Of a stretch of 64,000 nt of DNA, positions 36,191 through 38,418 are shown one piece after another. How positions within the stretch are numbered: the first letter of the stretch is position 1; each line of letters opens with the position of its first letter. The stretch comes from Anaerolineaceae bacterium (GTDB lineage: Bacteria > Chloroflexota > Anaerolineae > Anaerolineales > Anaerolineaceae). Location: the NCBI GenBank assembly GCA_029265815.1, contig JAJUGU010000004.1, positions 62,001 to 126,000 on the forward strand, given 5' to 3'. Under the pieces are notes generated by a model. It was not told where the DNA came from, made no database searches, and was given only the letters and a program-made list of their open reading frames with translations. The position numbers and the translations under genes are program-made.

Positions 36191-37030
36191 TCAGGTCAGG
36201 ATATTTTCCATTTCCCCGACCAGTGTTCGCCATTCCACCAGATCAACGGTTTGCGCGCGCCTCGCCGGGTCGATGCCTGCAGCTTCCAGCAGGGCAACAG
36301 CCTGTTCGGAAGATAGATTTAATCCAGCGGCCAGTGTGTTGCGCAGCATCTTGCGCTTTTGAGAGAACGCTGCCTTGATCACCTTGAAGAACAGCTCGCG
36401 CTGTGGAGCGCTCAGAAAGGGTTTTTCATACAGATCCACACGCAGGGTAGCCGAATCTACTTTTGGCGCGGGATAAAATGATGAGGCAGGGATGGATGCC
36501 GTGATGACCGGTTTTCCGTAAAGTTGCACGCTCAATGCCAGCAGCGACAGATCGCCCGGACCAGCACAAATCCGCTCTGCCACTTCACGCTGCATGGTCA
36601 GCACCAGCCGCGAAGGCTGCGGGGAGTGTTCAAGAAGATGGCGGATAATGGCAGAGGTAATGTAGTATGGAATGTTCGCCACCACAATGTACCCATCCTG
36701 CTCCACCAGAGACCGGGGTTCCAGCTCAAGTATATCGCCTTCAACAATATTGACATTTTTAAAAGAAACCAGAACCTCACGTAAGATGGGAACTAACTTT
36801 CGGTCGATTTCCACCGCGGTTACGTGAGCGGCCTTCGCTGCCAGCAGCCGGGTCAGGCTTCCGAGCCCGGCGCCGATTTCTAACACATGGTTCTGAGCAC
36901 TCAACTCAGCACACGCAACGATCTTTTTCAATGCGCTGTGATCAACCAGAAAATTCTGCCCGAGTCCTTTGCGGGGGTCGAGCTGATAACGGTGAAGCAG
37001 TGAACGGACGTCCAGCGCGGCGGGTTCTAT
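36191..37030 (-). CDS. ksgA: 16S rRNA (adenine1518-N6/adenine1519-N6)-dimethyltransferase; proposed AUA start at 37030
   Basis: LEIGAGLGSLTRLLA SAM motif, VANIPYYITSAIIRHLL catalytic motif. Codons upstream of the track ATG (36931) encode LDPRKGLGQNFLVDHSALKKIV, the conserved KsgA N-terminus. Confidence 0.85.
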   Translation of the reverse strand: MEPAALDVRSLLHRYQLDPRKGLGQNFLVDHSALKKIVACAELSAQNHVLEIGAGLGSLTRLLAAKAAHVTAVEIDRKLVPILREVLVSFKNVNIVEGDILELEPRSLVEQDGYIVVANIPYYITSAIIRHLLEHSPQPSRLVLTMQREVAERICAGPGDLSLLALSVQLYGKPVITASIPASSFYPAPKVDSATLRVDLYEKPFLSAPQRELFFKVIKAAFSQKRKMLRNTLAAGLNLSSEQAVALLEAAGIDPARRAQTVDLVEWRTLVGEMENILT

Positions 37031-38418
37031 GGCAGCACTCCTGTAAAACCAGGGGGCGGAGGGGATAGGAAGTAAATGGTTGTGCTGACCGAGTACCAGG
37101 GCTCATAATCCGCATCCGTGTACCCCAGATCTACCCAGTAGTCATTGTAGGGATAGTACCCAATATCCGCAACGGTTGCCACACCGTAGCCCGGAACATA
37201 GATCTGCGTTCCTTTGAAAATGTTGTACCACGCGCGGTGCATGCCAACCACACCCTTTTGTACCGGGATTCCAAGCGCAGTGCCGGTATAGCACCTGCCC
37301 TCAACGCCCGAACGGCACGGAGAGTACGAGGTGGCGATCACATTCACCGCCATATAATATTTAATAATGCCGTCGGGGGTTTGAAGCGTCTTCTCCACGA
37401 TCTGTGACCCATAATGAACAACACGGTTGACGGGTTCAACGAGAACCACATCCTCCAGATGGGTGCGAGACACTTCTTCACCATCCTCGTAGCGCACCCT
37501 GATCCGCGAAGCCTTAATACCCTCCCGTCCGGCCTCGATCACCTCTTCCTGGTTGATTTCCATCGAATCGTCAGCCACTCTCTCTGTTTCGTAAGGGATG
37601 GAGGATTGTTCCTGGATGATCTTTTCAATGACCCTCACAACCTGTATCTTGCCATCAGCGGGCAAAGGTTCGTTTTCAGCGGGTTTTGTATAGTCCAGGT
37701 CTTGCAGGGAAATTCCCGCAGTTTTGACCGCTTCTCCAACCGTCTCAGCAGCACTGATCGTGTTAATGATTGCACCATCCACTTTGATCTCAATGGGATG
37801 GGCCGCGACCAACGTCACATCCAGTGGCTGCTGCAGGGGGAGATCAAAAGCAGCCGTAAGCCGGTCTCCGCCGCCCACCCGGATCCCCTGCTGCCACAAC
37901 GCCAGCCCGAGCGTGGAAGCTGCCGAAGAAATGGTTTGCGTTGCGTCTCCCTGCGTGAGACTGATTTCTACCGCAGGTCGGTACTGGAGGGTCATTCCTG
38001 CATATCTCTCTAATACTTTTTCAAGCGCTATAGATTGTCCGTTGACAAGCACCTCATCACTTGCTGAAGGCTCGATTCCGGCAGCCGCGAGGATCTCCTG
38101 CGGTGTGAGCGCAGAGGTATTAAGTGTGATGATCTCACCATCAGGGTCGATCCAAATATGGATGGTTGAAGTGCTATTGTATTCAATAAATTGGGTTTTT
38201 GAAAGCCATGTGTTGGAGGATGGTGTAACACGATCGCCCGGTTGAACCTCAAAACCTGCCGAACGCAGCGCACCACCAACCGTTAACGCGCGCGTATGTA
38301 TTTCTTGATCTACGCCGTTAACTCTGACCTGAATGGTGCGTCCCATCAACAGGTAGCCAGCCACTACCCCTATCAGCGGCAGCCCAAAGAGTAAAGCCAG
38401 TTTAATTTTTTTATCCAT
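37027..38418 (-). CDS. DUF348/G5/3D-like cell-wall protein (YabE/RpfB-like, no Rpf domain)
   Basis: N-terminal TM, about four DUF348-like repeats, G5 region (VIEKIIQEQSSIPYETERVADDSM...), C-terminal GTQIYVPGYGVATVADIG...WVDL 3D-like domain. Confidence 0.8.
   Translation of the reverse strand: MDKKIKLALLFGLPLIGVVAGYLLMGRTIQVRVNGVDQEIHTRALTVGGALRSAGFEVQPGDRVTPSSNTWLSKTQFIEYNSTSTIHIWIDPDGEIITLNTSALTPQEILAAAGIEPSASDEVLVNGQSIALEKVLERYAGMTLQYRPAVEISLTQGDATQTISSAASTLGLALWQQGIRVGGGDRLTAAFDLPLQQPLDVTLVAAHPIEIKVDGAIINTISAAETVGEAVKTAGISLQDLDYTKPAENEPLPADGKIQVVRVIEKIIQEQSSIPYETERVADDSMEINQEEVIEAGREGIKASRIRVRYEDGEEVSRTHLEDVVLVEPVNRVVHYGSQIVEKTLQTPDGIIKYYMAVNVIATSYSPCRSGVEGRCYTGTALGIPVQKGVVGMHRAWYNIFKGTQIYVPGYGVATVADIGYYPYNDYWVDLGYTDADYEPWYSVSTTIYFLSPPPPGFTGVLP

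Follow-up and report, generated by a model that had tools for sequence, protein, structure and literature searches.

The ksgA (rsmA) gene in this 64,000-nt window, the whole stretch of Anaerolineaceae DNA that we analysed, probably starts at an AUA codon overlapping the stop codon of the gene upstream. We give a probability of roughly 80% to a mechanism, common to one genus of uncultured bacteria in the family, in which this AUA is reached by coupled restart and supports a low, stringency-dependent output of KsgA. The observations are the lack of any canonical start, the conservation of the ATA, selection on the codons that follow it and the near-cognate infC starts of the same family. From these we infer that ribosomes use the AUA, that its translation is coupled to that of the upstream gene, that its output is low and that IF3 controls it.

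In the proposed mechanism, the second and third bases of the AUA are also the first two of the upstream UAG (or UAA) stop codon. Initiator tRNA would be placed on the AUA either by ribosomes that have just terminated on the upstream gene and restart there, or by 30S subunits that the AGGAG site retains. IF3 discriminates against near-cognate codons such as AUA, so the output of KsgA would be low and tied to initiation stringency, IF3 and the state of the 30S subunit, as is the output of IF3 from infC.

The ksgA locus

The gene's identity is given by the TIGR00755 equivalog model (233 bits versus a cut-off of 171) and by PF00398 (174.5 bits), and it is the sole strong match in the source genome. 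Our re-reading of its frame recovered the ATA, the AGGAG site with its spacer, the ATAG overlap and the upstream TGA where the first-pass annotation had placed them (Table 1). It also bore out the absence of ATG, GTG or TTG ahead of GQNFL, as none occurs between the TGA at 37105 and position 36931. The codon at 36931, previously taken as the first ATG, is a TTG located past GQNFLVDHSA, and the CTG said to lie four codons after the ATA lies five codons after it.

Table 1. Features of the ksgA locus (positions within the window)
Feature	Position	Strand	Evidence
ksgA (rsmA) coding sequence from the proposed AUA, 279 codons plus stop	36191-37030	-	TIGR00755, PF00398, translation
Proposed AUA start codon (ATA)	37028-37030	-	ATA kept at this junction by 11/16 genus genomes
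TAG stop codon of the upstream G5/DUF348 gene	37027-37029	-	ATAG common with the ksgA start
AGGAG Shine-Dalgarno	37038-37042	-	7-nt spacer to ATA
Upstream G5/DUF348 (YabE-like) gene	37027-38418	-	PF03990 96 bits, PF07501 67 bits
In-frame TGA, upstream bound of the ksgA frame	37103-37105	-
GQNFL motif of KsgA	36947-36961	-	Translation
First canonical start in the ksgA frame (TTG), 3′ of GQNFL	36929-36931	-
CTG, rival ksgA start at codon -18	37013-37015	-

The junction codons in the ksgA frame are AGG AGT GCT GCC ATA GAA CCC GCC GCG CTG GAC GTC CGT. The ATA and the TAG of the upstream gene share the bases ATAG, the Shine-Dalgarno AGGAG sits inside the upstream gene at a suitable distance (7 nt) from the ATA, and the first base of the ATA is the wobble base of that gene's last proline codon. 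The upstream protein ends in ...FTGVLP* and is probably exported, as suggested by an N-terminal hydrophobic stretch. At L030 and other order-level loci across several families, a gene ending in ...WILP* or ...VLP* likewise lies upstream of ksgA and overlaps it.

We compared the junction with the rest of the source genome (2.58 Mb in 26 contigs) by scanning 1.08 Mb (42%), in which a codon-usage model predicted 803 genes; cases with a short N-terminal stretch, infC among them, would escape this kind of scan. ksgA ranked first of the 803 genes for coding signal upstream of the first canonical start. The same 1.08 Mb contains 136 co-directional overlap junctions whose downstream frame stays open through the stop codon of the gene before it, and ksgA is the only one without a canonical start within 60 nt. 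ATA is the overlap triplet in 23 of them, all near a canonical start except ksgA, and so the scanned part gives no sign of a genome-wide habit of ATA starts. An initial second ATA candidate (C2:37920) was discarded, as it has a canonical GTG behind GGAGG.

Conservation of the ATA within the genus

All 16 genomes of the genus carry ksgA, with a readable junction behind the same upstream gene. The junction codon is ATA in 11 genomes, ATG in three, TTG in one and GTA in one. The relatives do not all use a canonical start elsewhere, so the comparison leaves the originally proposed AUA start unrefuted and, overall, the comparative evidence supports it well. The stop codon of the upstream gene in the ATA genomes is TAG, except for a TAA in L014. 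Most relatives have AGGAG, TGGAG, AGGGG, CGGGG or TTGGAG as the Shine-Dalgarno site, and L004 has none of these.

Counting codons back from GQNFL, eight of the 11 ATA genomes have nothing canonical from -34 to -13, and three of the loci (the source genome's own, L002 and L005, the other genomes being G004 and G010) have nothing canonical from -34 to -2. L002 is also without the CTG, having CTC at that codon, and so only the ATA remains. A canonical codon lies five codons 3′ of the ATA in L003 (TTG) and L014 (GTG), and L004 has a GTG four codons 5′ of it; dependence on the ATA is therefore not universal among the genomes that carry it. The genome with GTA at the junction (L007, in G011) has an intact AGGAG and a TTG five codons on. 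These four (L003, L014, L007 and L004) may use either start.

In the tree, the ATA genomes fall into two clades, next to which lies a third whose members carry ATG or TTG at this codon. This placement indicates, as the most likely history, a single replacement of an NTG start by ATA within the genus, though two separate origins may have occurred.

Selection on the junction and the N-terminal codons

In five close genomes (L008 to L012), the first ATG is located at codon -12. Between the ATA and this ATG, each pair of genomes differs by 0 to 4 codon changes, all of them synonymous, which is the pattern expected of translated sequence.

The wobble A of the ATA was kept in 11 of 11 genomes, which were chosen for carrying ATA. 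Of 58 conserved four-fold codon columns across both genes, a single one had an identical third base in that set and none was all-A. When the GTA genome L007 was added, the junction A was present in 11 of 12 genomes, whereas not one of 56 columns had A with at most one exception. In family members with a canonical ksgA start just upstream, the same wobble base varies freely, being T (10), C (7), A (7) or G (2) (n = 26). The difference in A between these (7/26) and the genus (10/11, L004 omitted) has a Fisher P-value of 0.0007, or 0.008 when one genome per genus lineage is used, with species that are not independent of each other. Part of the conservation of GGAG and CCATAG may stem from the upstream protein, which they also encode.

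Alternative start sites

Initiation could instead take place at codon -18, which is CUG here and would have to be an NTG in relatives; we consider this unlikely. The codon is CTG in the source genome and L005, TTG in L003 and L007, and GTG in L014. However, it is an unusable CTC in L002 and TTT in L008 to L012, which rules out the CUG as a general ksgA start, and the Shine-Dalgarno is 22 nt away from it. A start at this codon would also leave unexplained both the constrained A of the junction and the conserved codons ahead of codon -18 in L008 to L012.

It is highly improbable that all KsgA arises by frameshifting as an extension of the upstream protein, or all of it from the TTG past GQNFL. 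The frames do overlap, but the junction shows no slippery run and the fusion partner, judged by its N-terminus, looks exported; we rejected the fusion on these two grounds. The TTG was rejected because the conserved GQNFL motif would be lost, and the selection on N-terminal codons in L008 to L012 counts against both versions. An error for ATG in sequencing or assembly, conceivable while the observation came from a single genome, is refuted and has practically no probability left, since the ATA recurs in ten other genomes and the records come from several independent projects (UBA, HGW, OKU9, AS27 and others).

An ATAG or ATAA overlap can thus serve as a start site even though annotation rules do not allow for it. 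Here, gene finders limited to ATG, GTG and TTG would truncate KsgA past GQNFL.

Near-cognate starts in infC and other genes

We used infC as a yardstick. All 15 infC loci of the genus start with ATC behind an AGGAG-type site, and the 43 readable loci of the family start with ATC (29), ATT (9) or ATA (5), and never with NTG. With these near-cognate starts, AUA very probably functions as the start codon of an essential gene in Anaerolineaceae. The parallel with infC drawn in the first-pass annotation is consequently stronger than was known at that point, with AUC throughout the genus and AUA at five loci of other genera. At these five (L274, L275, L284, L287 and L299), the ATA follows a purine-rich Shine-Dalgarno.

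Both genes bear on initiation fidelity and have an AUA, AUU or AUC start, a strong Shine-Dalgarno and conservation across species. Unlike IF3, KsgA is not an initiation factor but an rRNA methyltransferase acting on 30S maturation, and its start overlaps an upstream stop codon. The AUA of ksgA is conserved in one genus, whereas the near-cognate start of infC is found throughout bacteria. Furthermore, infC is autoregulated, with its near-cognate start (AUU in E. coli, AUC in Streptomyces, AUA in S. aureus), while autoregulation of ksgA is putative.

Conserved near-cognate starts are already known as a kind, and to our knowledge very few of them are AUA. In S. aureus, infC and ccpN start at AUA, and the ccpN AUA supports ~10-30% of the expression from AUG (PMC13009471). 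Initiation at AUA in E. coli reaches up to ~1% of AUG (Hecht 2017, as cited in PMC12864459). The ccpN gene of S. aureus and B. subtilis resembles ksgA by its conserved AUA and strong Shine-Dalgarno, with lowered expression, but it encodes a transcriptional repressor and its AUA start was shown by ribosome profiling and reporters; the stop-start overlap seen for ksgA is not described for ccpN in the accessible part of that source (PMC13009471). Streptomyces sigR also has a non-canonical start that was kept in its genus (in 32 of 34 species, the remaining two having GTT) and missed by annotation. It is a different gene with a different codon, GTC, whose repression by IF3 was shown by experiment (PMC5472188).

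Overlapping genes are commonly coupled in translation by termination-reinitiation, and overlaps of the ATGA type have the same four-base overlap and a Shine-Dalgarno within the upstream gene (PMC6728339). The ksgA overlap differs by being ATAG or ATAA, and its start is therefore AUA. Our literature search did not find a conserved AUA on ksgA in an ATAG or ATAA overlap.

Possible functions of the proposed AUA start

Two explanations of what the AUA does are alternatives within the AUA-start reading. In the first, to which we give about even odds, the AUA does no more than keep KsgA at a low level without regulation, or is a mildly weak start tolerated through coupling, with no feedback. The sister clade and nearly the whole family have a canonical codon (ATG, GTG or TTG) at this position, indicating that ksgA can generally do without regulation by a weak start, and coupling is common among overlapping genes (PMC6728339). 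However, AUG is only one substitution away from ATAA (giving ATGA) and two away from ATAG (also giving ATGA), yet a pair of deep clades have kept the ATA, and a second genus is also near-cognate at the ksgA start. A throttle or a tolerated weak start accounts for the sequence data equally well as a feedback loop.

Autogenous control of ksgA translation has been reported for E. coli. In the second explanation, which is possible but clearly the less probable of the two, the AUA would sense KsgA itself: when KsgA is low, unmethylated 30S subunits would relax start selection, initiation at the AUA would increase and KsgA would be restored. The sign is right, as proteins with non-AUG starts increase in E. 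coli and Haloferax without KsgA/Dim1 (PMC7897474). The near-cognate infC starts of the family are of the same class, and non-canonical ksgA starts seemingly arose in two genera. Against this loop, close relatives with ATG do without a weak start, and the canonical starts of the sister clade and of almost every other family member show that it is not general to ksgA. Moreover, every near-cognate gene would respond alike, and such a response does not require that a loop has evolved.

If the self-sensing explanation is true, ksgA would provide a second loop of the infC kind, in which an rRNA methyltransferase replaces the initiation factor and KsgA synthesis tracks 30S maturation, and the loop would have arisen at least twice in Anaerolineaceae (with AUA in one genus and CUG in another). 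Because the ksgA product sets initiation stringency, the AUA start makes this specific loop directly testable.

ksgA starts in the rest of the family and beyond

Outside the genus, 97 of 99 family loci have a canonical codon in the plausible ksgA start region, and both exceptions belong to genus g27. The overlap codon in g27 is CTG in G045 and G046, with a GTG seven codons on in G046; it is CTA in G044, with a CTG two codons on, and ATG in G043. From these codons, g27 seems to use CUG as its ksgA start, which would be a second non-canonical case. Among its loci L262, L264 and L265 (in G046, G045 and G044), two of the three genomes have no ATG, GTG or TTG in the start region.

None of the 28 readable class-level loci and none of the distant bacterial loci checked had a ksgA without a canonical start, giving no sign of a general tendency of ksgA to lack one. 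With canonical codons at 97 of 99 family loci and all 28 class-level loci, the weak ksgA start seems to be rare and to have arisen twice. Two further ksgA matches, G071:C20:56483-57295 and G081:C72:3579-4370, contain one in-frame TGA and one in-frame TAG.
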